From Pseudomonas arsenicoxydans (GTDB lineage: Bacteria; Pseudomonadota; Gammaproteobacteria; Pseudomonadales; Pseudomonadaceae), in assembly GCF_006438915.1 (NCBI RefSeq), contig NZ_RCZE01000009.1, forward strand, positions 1 to 64,000: DNA of 64,000 bases. Direction: 5' to 3'. Below the pieces are notes generated by a model. The model saw only the letters and a list, made by a program, of their open reading frames with translations. It did not search any database and was not told the DNA's origin. Every line of letters begins with the position of its first letter. The stretch's first letter is position 1. Positions 3,045 to 24,354 of the stretch are shown piece by piece. The position numbers and the translations under genes are program-made.

Positions 3045-6000
3045 TCAGATTGGAGGTAACATCGGGCCGTCCCCAGCAGGGAATGAGGAAGTCAGCTTTC
3101 CGTTGTCTTTTAGAACTTGCCACTGGACACCATCAACTGTTTTGGTATGTAAGGTCGTAATCACGCCATCGACCTCTCGCATGAAAACCCCTGGTGTTGC
3201 AGCTACTTCATCGGTCACCGTTAATATTTTATCGTTGCTCCAGCTTTTTGGTGCCAGCGTATGCTTTCCGCCCTTTTTGGCTGACATGCCGATGGTTCCG
3301 TCCTTCCGCTCGAGAATCATTTTAAAATCTTCGACTTTTATTGTTCCATCCGGGTTTGTCTGAAGTACAGTCATCTGATGGTCCGGGGATGTCAAAACAT
3401 CGGACGAGTGCCCGCCGATTGGTTTGTTACTACCGGGGCTTCGCGTGCCGAACAGAATTTTGTTCTGCATTTGTTTAGGCAGAGGCCCAGTGTAGGGACC
3501 GTGAGGAGCGGGTGGTGGTGGTTGGCCTTCATCAACGTGCGCATTCGTCGCATCATCCGGGTTTTTATTTGAAGATTCGTTTTTCGCACCAGGACATTCC
3601 CCTGTTAGACCCAACGGATCCACCCACCCCGTAGGGTTAGGCACGTACTGGTAGTTATTCAACCCACCCGCAAGCTTGATCGGATCCGGCGTCAGAAACC
3701 GCCCGGTCCCCGGATTGTAGTAGCGATGCCGGTTGTAGTGTAAGCCCGTCTCTGCATCGAAGTACTGTCCCTGAAACCGCAACGGGTTGTCGATTTCGGC
3801 AACATCGAGTGCGGCGAGATTGCCATAAGCGCGGTACTTGGCAGACCACATGATCTCGCCGCTGTAGTCGGTGAGCTCTTGCGGCGTCCCCAGATGGTCG
3901 AGCTGATAGTAAAACGGCGTCGCCTTCAGCGGGCCTTCACCATCCAGCATTGCCAGCGGGCGGAAGCTGCCGGGTTCATAGATGTAGGTGCGATACCGGT
4001 TATCTGCACTTTCAGCGATCAGGCGTTCGCCTTGCCAAAGAAATTCGGTGGTGCTGCCATCGACGGTTTTTTCGATGCGGCGGCCGAAGGCGTCGTACTT
4101 ATAGGACGCGACGCTACCCCCCGGCAGGCTAGCCCCAATCAAGCGATGCTGGCAGTCGTAACGGTATTCAGTGACGAGTTTTTGCCCGGTGCCGCGACGT
4201 TCGCGGGTCAGGTTGCCGTAGGCGTCGTAGTCGTAGTGGCGGTCGCCCTGCATCAGCAGGCGGTTGCCTTTGACGTTGGCCAGGTTCGCAGTGGGTTGGT
4301 CGCCTTGCCCCAGCAAGTTGCCCGCAGGGTCGTGGGCGAAGCTTTCCGGGGTGTTGCCACGGACGTTGATCAGACGGTCGAGCGGGTCGTAGTGGTAGCT
4401 GCGATTGCCTTTGCGACTGTCGTCGATGCCGGCAAGGTTGCCGTTGGCGTCGTAGGCGTAGCGACGGTGGAACAGGTTTCTATCTTTTTGGCTGACGCTG
4501 TGGGCTTGCAGACGTCCTTGCTCGTCGTACTGATACTGACTGAGCAGCAGACCCTGTTGGCGTTTTTGCTCTAGTCCGGCGTTGAACTGGTGGGTGGTCA
4601 GGCGCGAGCCGTTGAGGTCGATGCTGCTTAGTTGGCCGCCGCGCTGGTGGTTGTAATCGAGCTTGCTGCCATCCGGGAGGCGGCAGTGTTTCAGTTGGCC
4701 GACGCTGTCGTACTGGTAGCGCAGGGTGCCCCAGCCTTGGTGTTCGGTGATTAGGCGGTCTTGTAGATCGTATTCGTATGCCAGCGGCCAGTGGCCGTCG
4801 TCCACGTTTACCAGACGGCCAAGGGCGTCATAGCTGTAATGGATCTCCTCGCCATCGGCCAGGGTTTTGACCAGTAAGCGGCCAGCAGCGTCGCGCTGAT
4901 ATTCAGTGACAAGTTCACTGCCATCGTCGCCGAACTCGGTTTTCTTCAGCAATTGGCCGTTGAGGTCGTATTCATAGGCGGTGCGGCGCCCGTCGAATCC
5001 GGTTTCCTGCTGGATCAGGCCGTTGGCGTAGTAATCGAGGTGGTAGTGCTCGCCACGTTCATTCTCGATCTCGGTCAGCAGCAATCTCGAGTTGTCGTAG
5101 CGATAACGCAACTGGCTGCCATCCGGATTGATCCGGCGGCTGACCAGGTGCAAACCATCGGCATATTCGTAACGCGTCACACGGCCTAGCTCATCGCGCT
5201 CTGCGGTGACGCGGCCGTACGGGTTGTAAGTGAACGCACGGCTGGCGCCGCCGGGCAGGGTGACTTGCGTCAGGCGGCTGGCTGCATCCCATTGGTAGTG
5301 GGTGATCGCACCGTTTTCTTCCTGACGAGTAATCTGCCGACCCAGTGCGTCATAGCGGTATTTGCGCTGGCCGCCGTCGGGCAACCGTTCTTCCAACAAT
5401 TGACCGAGGTTGTTCCACCCCAGTTGATGGCGGCTGCCGTCAGGATAACGAATCTCCAACAGGCGACCTTGACGGTCGTAGCTGTAGTGAGTTTCGTTAC
5501 CGTGGGGGTCGGTTTGCTGGGTGATGTCGCCTTGACGGTTGCGCTCGTACTTCCAGCGTGCTCTGCCGCGTTGCACATCGATGAGTTGGCCATCGTAGTA
5601 GTTGTAGCGAGTCGGTTCATCTTCTGGAGGAACAACAGCAATCAAACGCCCGGCGTCGTTGTATTGGTATTCGGTGACGGCTCCCAGCGCGTCTTTTTCA
5701 GCGATCAGGCGACCTTCGTCGTTGTAAGCTCTTTGCGTTTCAGCCCCGTCAGGCGCGGTCTCGCTGATAAGTCGCGCATTTTCGTCATGCACGTAAACCT
5801 GTTCGCTGCCATCTGCATTGAGCACGGTCACCGTGCCCTTGTCGTCCCACATATAACGCGCTTCAAGTTGGGAATAACTGGCCCAGTGGCGGATGCAGCG
5901 CGCCAATTTGCCTTCGCGTTCCCATTCCCAGTAGAAGCTGGCGCCACCCGCCAATTGACGTTCGAGAATGACGTGTTGATCGTTGTAGCGATAGTGCTCG

Positions 6001-22330: not shown

Positions 22331-22360
22331 AAAAAGGTGCAGACCTTTGTCAGTCTGCAG
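22331..22360 (-). terminator. Rho-independent terminator of the two-peptide operon
   Basis: On the minus strand TGCAGAC and GTCTGCA (353-359 and 339-345 in the last three digits) pair across 7 bases and are followed by CCTTTTT. It lies about 30 bases behind the stop of the second small peptide gene. Confidence 0.8.
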
Positions 22361-22388
22361 CCTTGCTGATGCGTTTAACGAGCAGGTT

Positions 22389-22565
22389 TCAGCCTTGGGC
22401 CGGCACGCTCCAGATTTTCTTGATTTCGTGGATATTGCCCACGTTGAAGCGAATGGTCATGCTGCCGCAAGGCGAAGCCAGCGTACTCTTGACCGGCGTG
22501 TTGATCACGTTGGTACCTGCACGCAGCAGTGGGGTTTCATTCCAGTTTTTCATCAGCTTGTTCAT
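22389..22565 (-). CDS. Small peptide B of a two-peptide operon (candidate precursor)
   Basis: This 58-codon gene encodes a peptide aligning without gaps to the peptide at 24056-24256: 27 of the first 52 positions are identical. Shared features are KL..NW at 3-8, TN.INTP at 18-24, a Cys at 33 and GNIHEIKK at 43-50 followed by W52. The middle (25-40) varies. An AAAAGGAA ribosome site lies 6-13 bases upstream of the ATG. It is the last gene of the operon, 18 bases behind the cupin-like gene and before a terminator. No signal peptide or membrane segment. I do not recognise the family. A modified-peptide precursor is the leading guess; a small regulatory or structural protein is possible. Confidence 0.75.
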   Translation of the reverse strand: MNKLMKNWNETPLLRAGTNVINTPVKSTLASPCGSMTIRFNVGNIHEIKKIWSVPAQG

Positions 22566-22583
22566 AGGTTTTTCCTTTTATTT

Positions 22584-23243
22584 TCATTGGGGTAACGAAT
22601 GGCTACCGTTATTAAGCAGTGACAGCGAATCTTCAAAGAATGCTGTTTCCTGCTTTGCAATACCGGGATAAGTCGGTCTGTAGTTTTCATCGAAGCACCA
22701 GGCTTCTTCGTTTCGCTCCGACCGTAGAGGATGAATAAGTAGACTCAACGATGCGGACATTAGGTTGGGTGGAAGCTGCCTATGTATTTCTTTCAGTGGA
22801 GGCATGTGCAGGACTTCGCCCGGTGCGAGTTTAAGCACTCGCTCTTCACCGAGTATTGGAATTGTTCCGGCACGAATCGGTGTGTCATCAAGTATTTCGC
22901 GAATGACCGTTGTATACCCGTCGCCGCTGTAACCCACGGCATACATTTCAAAATCGTGGGTGTGATTCAAGTCATAGATAAATGTTTCGCTTTCGTCTTG
23001 GGACGAGACCGGCGACCAAAAACCCAATCGAACAGTAAACAGGTCGTTGTAATGCAGTACAAAGGCGTAGGCGCTGTAAAGACTATTTTTTGTGCTGAAA
23101 CCCTCTTGTTGAACGGTGTTGTAAAGATGCTCGCTCAACAATCTACGGTTGGTAGCCAGTCGACGAAGGTCCTCTATTATTTTTGACGTGTCTCGCTCCA
23201 GATCGTACGCCAACACACGCTCAACAAACGTCTGCAATTTCAT
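22584..23243 (-). CDS. Cupin-like protein of the two-peptide operon
   Basis: The 219 residues contain NHTHDFEMYAVGYSGDG (about 92-108), resembling the first cupin motif (HxH, Glu, Gly). LAPGEVLHMPPLKEIHRQL (about 136-154) resembles the second, with PG and a His. Thiol and peptide dioxygenases often have such metal-binding cupins, so a metal-dependent oxidation of the flanking peptides is conceivable. The N-terminal third is helical and has no signal peptide. The ATG overlaps the stop of the preceding gene (ATGA), implying coupled translation. I do not recognise the exact family; the metal and reaction are inference. Confidence 0.7.
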   Translation of the reverse strand: MKLQTFVERVLAYDLERDTSKIIEDLRRLATNRRLLSEHLYNTVQQEGFSTKNSLYSAYAFVLHYNDLFTVRLGFWSPVSSQDESETFIYDLNHTHDFEMYAVGYSGDGYTTVIREILDDTPIRAGTIPILGEERVLKLAPGEVLHMPPLKEIHRQLPPNLMSASLSLLIHPLRSERNEEAWCFDENYRPTYPGIAKQETAFFEDSLSLLNNGSHSLPQ

Positions 23244-24016
23244 GCCACTTCACTTTGCTGGTCGAGTAAATAGTTCAGGCGACTGTTTTGCAGGTTTCTC
23301 AACAGTGGCACGAAATTCAGTGCGGTTTGCGGATTGGTTTGCTGTATCACCTGAAAGGCTTTCCAGGCGACGGCGGGGTGATAGTGATAAATCAATTCTT
23401 CGGCCACTTTGACGGCCCCTGGATCCTGTGCGGCTTCGAGTAACTCAAGACTCACCAGATAGCGTGCGGCACTGTCGTCATGGGGGAACCAGGCGACTTT
23501 GCAGCGTGTGGCACGATCAAATACCCCGATGTCTGCACTTCTGTCCGGCAGGTTGATACTGCCAATAAAGGCCACGTGCCCGTCGCCTGTTGGGTTGCTG
23601 TCGAACAGGACCTTCGTGCCGTCGATGAATAAAGGGTTGTTCGCGTCGACAATGACCTGCTGTCCAATGATCAGATGGCTGGCTTCTACCCCAAAGAGCT
23701 GGACAGGAAATGACTGGTCGTTGATGGCAAATAAAACGCTCTTGCCTGGAACGGTGTACAACAGGGGGGAAGGCGATGCGCGATCAGGTACTTTGAGACT
23801 AATGTTCCCATTTTTGTTGCAGTACAGTGTCAATGTTCCGGTATGGGTGTTTGTTGACTTCATGATCGCTGCACCTTTAGAGGTGTCATGGAGCTGATCG
23901 GATTGGTTGTGCAGCAAACTGACTAGGTTATGAATGTCGGCGGATGTGTTCAGCGTTTTTAAAGTTGTTATCAGTTCGTCGGGTGATAAGGCGTCGTTTA
24001 AAAGTGTTGTGATCAT
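23240..24016 (-). CDS. Unrecognised protein of the two-peptide operon (beta-rich middle, helical repeat end)
   Basis: The 258 residues show a helical start, a beta-rich central domain (about 60-185, with LYTVPGKSVLFAINDQSFPVQL) and a helical C-terminal third. That third, containing SARYLVSLELLEAA and HPAVAWKAFQVIQQ, is reminiscent of HEAT-type repeats. No catalytic motif, signal peptide or membrane segment is visible. It lies 39 bases behind the first peptide gene and overlaps the cupin-like gene by 4 bases. A peptide-binding partner of the cupin-like protein would fit the layout, but no function can be claimed. A Met at residue 52 could be an internal alternative start. Confidence 0.65.
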   Translation of the reverse strand: MITTLLNDALSPDELITTLKTLNTSADIHNLVSLLHNQSDQLHDTSKGAAIMKSTNTHTGTLTLYCNKNGNISLKVPDRASPSPLLYTVPGKSVLFAINDQSFPVQLFGVEASHLIIGQQVIVDANNPLFIDGTKVLFDSNPTGDGHVAFIGSINLPDRSADIGVFDRATRCKVAWFPHDDSAARYLVSLELLEAAQDPGAVKVAEELIYHYHPAVAWKAFQVIQQTNPQTALNFVPLLRNLQNSRLNYLLDQQSEVA

Positions 24017-24055
24017 GAAATAGCCTGCTTCGTATTTATTTCCAAGCTCAGGCGA

Positions 24056-24256
24056 TCAGGTGGCGGAGTTGCTCGATGTGTCTGGCACTTCCGCCCGCTG
24101 CCAATATTTCTTTATTTCGTGAATGTTTCCGATATTCAGGCGGGGTGTTGTTCCCCAGCAATTGATGCTGCTGTTTGTTTGTGTGGGGGTGTTAATCATA
24201 TTTGTGGCTGCGCAAAATGTCGGGGTGTCAGACCAGTTTCCTGTCAGTTTTTGCAT
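24056..24256 (-). CDS. Small peptide A of a two-peptide operon (candidate precursor)
   Basis: The 66-residue peptide is the paralogue of the one at 22389-22565, with the same KL..NW, TN.INTP, Cys33 and GNIHEIKK.W positions. It adds a second Cys at 15 and a 12-residue polar tail. It is the first gene of the operon, about 35 bases behind a sigma-70-type promoter. The coding sequence is more AT-rich than the neighbouring aruG. No signal peptide. Conservation at both ends with a variable middle would suit a precursor with recognition segments around a modified region, but this is inference. No radical-SAM, YcaO or lanthipeptide enzyme is nearby. Confidence 0.75.
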   Translation of the reverse strand: MQKLTGNWSDTPTFCAATNMINTPTQTNSSINCWGTTPRLNIGNIHEIKKYWQRAEVPDTSSNSAT

Positions 24257-24291
24257 GGTTGGCTCGTTTGATGTGGTTGGTGTGTGTTTTT

Positions 24292-24354
24292 AGTATGGGG
24301 AGGGCGACTTCCAAAGGCAATTTAGTAGTTGTTAGTTGATGTTGTCAGTTGTTA
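24292..24354 (-). promoter_or_regulatory. Promoter and direct repeats upstream of the two-peptide operon
   Basis: On the minus strand TTGCCT (24315-24320) and CATACT (24292-24297) are 17 bases apart, a plausible sigma-70 promoter. Two direct copies of AGTTGTTA (plus strand 24327-24334 and 24347-24354), 20 bases apart, lie just upstream of the -35 element and could bind an activator on one face of the helix. Confidence 0.5.

Follow-up and report, generated by a model that had tools for sequence, protein, structure and literature searches.

A putative RiPP-like cassette of small peptides, a three-histidine cupin and its degenerate partner in Pseudomonas and remote relatives

The genome of Pseudomonas arsenicoxydans harbors a locus in which the genes of two similar small peptides enclose those of two larger proteins, and none of the four products (P66, A258, C219 and P58) matched a family of the Pfam and NCBIfam collections. 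Do the two larger proteins modify the peptides, as a sequence-only reading of the locus had suggested? The question was addressed by a computational analysis of the window, i.e., the whole stretch of 64,000 nucleotides (contig NZ_RCZE01000009.1) around the locus, and of related loci in other genomes. The preferred answer, to which we assign a probability of roughly 0.6, is a RiPP-like maturation cassette, in which the A258/C219 pair would modify P58 and P66.

The four-gene locus and its distribution in Pseudomonas

All four genes lie on the minus strand and the ORFs were found where the earlier reading had placed them. The P66 gene (24056-24256; all gene coordinates include the stop codon) encodes a peptide of 66 amino acids and is located 5' of the pair encoding A258 (23240-24016) and C219 (22584-23243), whose genes indeed overlap as ATGA. 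According to its AF2 model and to profile comparisons, A258 represents a degenerate cupin with a helical C-terminus, and C219 is a cupin with the conserved residues H94, H96 and H154. The P58 gene (22389-22565) encodes a peptide of 58 amino acids with a single cysteine, Cys33, and the C-terminal sequence NVGNIHEIKKIW. Its ATG is preceded by AAAAGGAAAAACCT; a good ribosome-binding site was also sought upstream of the P66 start and none was seen.

A terminator had been postulated at 22331-22360, and the terminator scan yielded an intrinsic-terminator-like hairpin 3' of the P58 gene (22359-22338, minus strand) with an 8-pair stem and a CCTTTTTATG tail. The number of terminator-like sites alone barely exceeds chance (12 versus 7.5 +/- 2.9 in shuffles). 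By our own reading of the foldings, a strong hairpin was present 3' of the peptide gene in nine out of ten folded loci, its T-run being poor in some of them (L018, L020, L029); there was no such hairpin at the Morganella locus (L030). The promoter postulated at 24292-24320 was not reproduced by the promoter scan, which gave a weak site at 24348-24319 with 9/12 matches (six promoter-like sites found versus 2.5 +/- 1.8 in shuffles). The cassette may be transcribed from upstream genes.

The proposed paralogy of P66 and P58 was borne out by a gapless alignment of 52 residues with 27 identities (E 4e-19). Within 17 aligned peptides, a set that leaves out the peptide of a Vibrio plasmid, the residues W8, A16, C33, R39, N41, G43, I45, H46, I48 and K49 are invariant; by our own reading outside the alignment, the Vibrio peptide retains the Cys, the Arg, the Asn, both Ile and the Lys. 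Conservation in the P58 family extends to both the N- and the C-terminal end, unlike in many RiPP cores. That the peptide ORFs show the substitution pattern of real genes was confirmed for the P58 type, orthologues of which are under purifying selection (dN/dS 0.08-0.38 for pairs with unsaturated dS). For P66-type pairs, with dS near saturation, values of 0.23 and 0.26 were obtained. This subtype also occurs at two further loci (L021 and L031).

Matches to C219 were detected in 13 of 199 Pseudomonas genomes including that of the window. Eleven of these are intact, one (G037) was dismissed as the region of an ABC ATPase, and one (G055) is a broken A/C pair, of which a remnant is located at L024 7403-8139 and for which the profile found no peptide. 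A scan of genome contigs revealed six more loci, five from Pseudomonas and one from Morganella; a seventh, L028, was treated as a duplicate of G135 because their contigs are equally long. The cassette on the Vibrio plasmid came from a search of plasmids. At all 18 distinct intact loci of this Pseudomonas type the gene of the A protein is found directly upstream of the C gene, with a peptide gene alongside, and in 15 of the 18 the overlap of the A and C genes falls on the same base. The peptide gene lies downstream of C at 17 loci and solely upstream of A at the remaining one (L031). Flanking peptides on both sides, as described in the earlier reading, are real in the window but confined to it among the 18 loci.

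Within the 199 Pseudomonas genomes, a peptide together with an intact C was present in 11, C without peptide in none, a marginal peptide match without C in one, and neither of them in 187. The co-occurrence is significant (Fisher p 3e-17 with the peptide profile A3), its informative part being the absence from the other 187 genomes, because the profile was built mostly from the 11 positive ones. The marginal match (G062, E 0.009) has neither A nor C within 8 kb and was rejected; about two such matches are expected in 199 genomes. The idea of a modified peptide would have suffered if the middle genes occurred often without one, and it survived (18/18 loci, 11/199 genomes with co-occurrence, 50/57 places in remote relatives).

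Within the stretch compared, genes which we take to encode N-succinyltransferase-like proteins are found near the cassette in 14 of 18 loci, and a presumably oxaloacetate-decarboxylase-like gene in eight. The cassette on the Vibrio plasmid (L066 3026-6877) adjoins genes for a Tn3 family transposase, a recombinase and restriction-modification, which suggests mobility of this copy. The nucleotide stretch of C and peptide from Morganella gave no match in E. coli genomes.

The intact cupin and its degenerate partner

Across 34 C sequences, which span bacterial classes, the residues H94, H96, H154, R72, W76, F98, G107, G109, Y110 and Q156 never change. Of the two cupin motifs named earlier, HTHDFE is located at residues 94-99 of C219 and PGEVLHMP is present as well, but conservation does not extend to the histidine of the latter, H146; instead, H154 within the motif EIHRQ completes the three conserved histidines. 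The three-histidine pattern of thiol dioxygenases is thus found in 34/34 sequences, and metal binding is predicted for C219. The C proteins share with cysteine dioxygenase (CDO) the lack of a conserved glutamate in the usual cupin motif. Among the families matched by 31 C members at E up to 1, CDO_I was absent; weak matches to HEAT_2 occurred in 4/31 (best E 9e-4). The genome of the window itself contains no CDO_I match. The structure prediction of C219 reached a pLDDT of 37, and PDB sequence searches with the C and A profiles gave chance matches only. Judged from its invariant residues, C219 is likely the catalytic subunit.

The A proteins have no conserved histidines and lack the histidine triad; W218 is their sole invariant residue. 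The profiles of remote A and remote C proteins matched each other with a probability of 97% in hhalign (E 8e-11, 263 columns), and A is therefore a degenerate paralogue of C. Profiles built from Pseudomonas sequences only showed no match between A and C (0.7%); the Pseudomonas A profile matches the remote A profile at 98%. In the AF2 model of A258 (pLDDT 77), residues 1-172 resemble CDO, ADO and plant cysteine oxidases with Z values of 9-11 (best Z 10.9, rmsd 3.2 over 142 residues), and other cupins score lower, at a Z of about 8, among the 50 best matches listed. HEAT repeats are located C-terminally in some A relatives: three remote A proteins scored above the HEAT_2 threshold (E 8e-7, 2e-7 and 5e-9), and A258 itself did not. 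Apart from such generic repeats, the remote A and C proteins and ten remote peptides yielded nothing but weak matches to the Pfam and NCBIfam models.

The pair shares with CDO, ADO and the plant cysteine oxidases the predicted fold of A258 and the three-histidine pattern of C. It differs from them by having no significant sequence match, by an A protein devoid of the histidines, by the HEAT repeats of its relatives and by its linkage to small peptides.

Remote relatives, exporters and sister peptides

The C profile matched in 15 of 398 genomes of the phylum and in two of 369 genomes of the class, with the window's genome counted in both samples. An A-like gene is located upstream of C in 15 of 16 remote loci according to BLAST clustering; at one locus (L056) the upstream ORF shows only a weak HEAT_2 match. 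These relatives, found in Gammaproteobacteria and in a family of another class (f213), probably Alphaproteobacteria, carry different small peptides. As for the earlier question whether homologues are always accompanied by a GNIHEIKK peptide, the peptide is present at the 18 Pseudomonas-type loci, and other peptides take its place at the remote ones.

Family f213 turned out to be rich in the cassette, with C in 55 of 149 genomes, as against 4/118 in f141, 6/99 in f14 and only 2/190 in a class-wide sample around f213. A peptide of the A9 profile is encoded 905-1175 nt upstream of C on the same strand at 50 of 57 C places in f213, and 30 of these 50 linked peptides are rows of the profile itself; across genomes, peptide and C co-occur with a Fisher p of 3e-31. 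An earlier profile of eight peptides had detected a peptide upstream of A in all 30 f213 census loci examined, 22 of which were outside the eight. Visual inspection of the seven unlinked places showed, in each case, another small ORF before the A gene that could plausibly encode a different peptide. Close remote peptides gave dN/dS values of 0.29-0.76, less clear than those of the P58 type. Some of the remote peptides share an LPxLD-type N-terminal motif, the profile of which misses several remote peptides as well as the Pseudomonas ones.

In 24 loci, 13 of 23 A genes are preceded by an SD-led ORF whose C-terminal half is rich in Val/Ile, as against 3 of 135 other genes there; the criterion was chosen after such peptides had been seen, and one of the three control ORFs (in L145) is itself a candidate peptide. 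The control was needed because SD-led ORFs are unspecific, nine of them being present in L126, which has neither A nor C. This locus contains a peptide relic (3265-3606) with a decayed N-terminal motif, A and C being absent within 7 kb. In a genome that has kept the peptide without A and C (G953), the N-terminal motif has decayed, which we count in favor of a link between peptide and pair. A match in another genome (G1008) lies inside a frame of 816 amino acids and is probably due to chance. One locus (L065) has the A/C pair without a convincing peptide; nearby, an ORF which we take to be JmjC/FIH-like was observed (4573-5517). L146 and L148 contain closely similar pairs of a C-like protein and an upstream partner near large ORFs that presumably begin with nucleotide-cyclase domains, and their peptide candidates look unlike the rest.

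Of 45 long loci, three have exporter genes adjoining the cassette, none of them in Pseudomonas. The 45 comprise L129, 36 loci that were searched by tblastn with the Alteromonas proteins as queries, and eight further ones; the 36 include two loci without an intact cassette (L024 and L025) and the duplicate L028 mentioned above. The plasmid of Alteromonas stellipolaris (L129 3491-10935, CP013927.1) encodes HlyD, an ABC ATPase, MacB/FtsX, two small peptides, A, C, a second ABC ATPase and an ABC-2 permease. In the gene table of CP013927.1 all of these are named hypothetical protein except the first ABC ATPase, and the two peptides are missing. The order in L144 is HlyD, ABC ATPase, MacB, three sister peptides, A, C and ABC ATPase, and in L145 the exporter genes are located beside the pair on the opposite strand. 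Three sister peptides follow C in L147, and L142/L143 encode a peptide with a double-glycine motif. Two candidates were left out of the exporter loci, namely an ABC ATPase in L062 and an HlyD-like match in L141 beside an ORF which, as we assume from its beginning, encodes an RND pump. No relative of the Alteromonas-type exporter was found near Pseudomonas-type loci by tblastn or, for the neighbors in the window, in the ORF list.

Bacteriocin operons with MacAB-like exporters are a known arrangement. L129 and L144 resemble them with their HlyD, ABC ATPase and MacB/FtsX genes, small peptides and second ABC ATPase, and the cassettes of the window and of the other Pseudomonas-type loci differ in that no such exporter was found beside them. 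The exporter operons and the sets of sister peptides speak for a product of the RiPP or bacteriocin kind.

A proposed peptide-modifying pair and its alternatives

The linkage of precursor gene and putative enzyme gene that is expected of a RiPP was observed at 18/18 and 50/57 places. Since the pair and a small peptide recur in distant bacteria, sometimes beside an exporter, the cassette has the appearance of a so far unrecognised route to modified peptides. P58 and P66 would serve as precursor peptides, P58 being a likely substrate of the pair as judged from gene linkage and conservation. The overlap of their genes would couple the synthesis of A258 and C219, and the two proteins probably assemble into a heteromer, in which C219, as a three-histidine metal cupin probably dependent on iron and O2, would do the chemistry. 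The metal-less paralogue A258 would contribute the helical C-terminus, which consists of HEAT repeats in relatives. The heteromer would probably hold the precursor by its conserved N-terminal part and present the segment behind it to C219. In the clade of the window the target most likely lies in the variable central segment, which contains the invariant Cys33; elsewhere Val/Ile-rich or other tails may be modified, and no type of residue is common to all peptide families as an obvious target. Some relatives probably export the product via HlyD/ABC/MacB as an antibacterial or signalling peptide.

A similar division of labor is known from methanobactin and TglHI, where a metal-oxidase subunit of the MNIO type (DUF692) and a partner protein are encoded beside a short precursor. 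The predicted cassette has the same composition, and MNIO and partner proteins have folds other than those of A and C. In our cassette the partner is instead a paralogue that lacks the metal and has helical repeats, and neither A nor C matched DUF692. Among the matches listed in the literature search, the scope of which excluded preprints and most subscription papers, there was no description of the cassette or the pair.

An oxygen or redox switch, in which C219 acts as a CDO- or ADO-like thiol dioxygenase and oxidises Cys33 to the sulfinate, is an unlikely alternative. It is in line with Cys33 in 17/17 aligned peptides and a Cys at the equivalent position in the Vibrio peptide, with the CDO/ADO-like predicted fold of the paralogue A, and with an alignment in which the C profile places HxH, H and a Ser on CDO landmarks. 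This alignment, between C and relatives of CDO_I, does not reach significance (hhalign, 1%, E 0.05), and by its register only the Ser of the Ser-His-Tyr triad of CDO is kept. Cys is absent from 30/30 aligned peptides of the remote family (A9) and present in 4 of 11 divergent ones, and thiol oxidation is therefore no family-wide rule. The earlier proposal of Cys33 as the target of modification remains attractive for the window's clade and cannot be extended to the family.

We also consider it improbable that A258 and C219 are non-catalytic and hold a toxic or membrane-active peptide unmodified, be it as immunity protein, chaperone or antitoxin. The Val/Ile-rich tails of remote peptides, ABC transporters adjoining some loci, the missing metal site of A and the plasmid copy near a Tn3 transposase would fit such a role. 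The retention of the three histidines of C and of neighboring residues in 34/34 sequences across classes would, however, be difficult to account for if C had no metal function, and PADLOC models found no family among eight proteins.

Rather doubtful is the idea that the peptides are conserved small proteins which regulate or anchor the A/C pair, the pair itself acting on another substrate. The conservation of P58 at both ends, its low dN/dS and the lack of an Alteromonas-type exporter near Pseudomonas-type loci agree with it. It is opposed by the peptides being wholly different between clades in which A and C persist, and by the several peptides and the exporters in L129 and L144.

A 2-oxoglutarate-dependent hydroxylase of the JmjC type was rejected as very improbable in spite of weak JmjC_2 matches in 4/31 C members (best E 0.012), since the HxD/E...H facial triad of these enzymes is replaced by HxH in 34/34 sequences. 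The precedent is PbsQ, described in PMC12257519 as a cupin-like, JmjC-related hydroxylase of a RiPP pathway whose pbs cluster also holds MNIO, B12-rSAM, arginase and protease. The pbs and biphenomycin-like clusters resemble our cassette in combining small precursor peptides with a cupin-superfamily protein, which acts on them in that pathway (PMC12257519). They differ by these four additional enzymes, none of which was recognised here among the neighbors scanned, and by HxD/E in place of HxH. The neighbors scanned also fit the earlier statement that a classical RiPP enzyme is missing. A phage or defence origin was rejected, as was a chance pairing of ORFs. Relatives were found neither in phage records nor, by a one-pattern scan, in viral contigs, PADLOC gave no match, and a PHROGs search of the window proteins returned nothing useful (E 0.08-0.46).

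We classify the locus as RiPP-like, short of a proven RiPP. Whether it stands for a new RiPP class is a more tentative proposal, to which we give slightly less than even odds: such a class would occur in Gammaproteobacteria and in one family outside them, probably of the Alphaproteobacteria, and would rely on a heteromer of a CDO-fold metalloenzyme and its metal-less, HEAT-bearing paralogue for the O2-dependent modification of clade-specific precursors, with MacAB-type export in some lineages. If the preferred reading of a RiPP-like maturation cassette is true, the A/C pair would be a RiPP-like enzyme pair unnamed by the Pfam and NCBIfam models used, the genomes sampled would contain dozens of candidate precursors, and thiol-dioxygenase-type folds would gain a possible role in peptide maturation.
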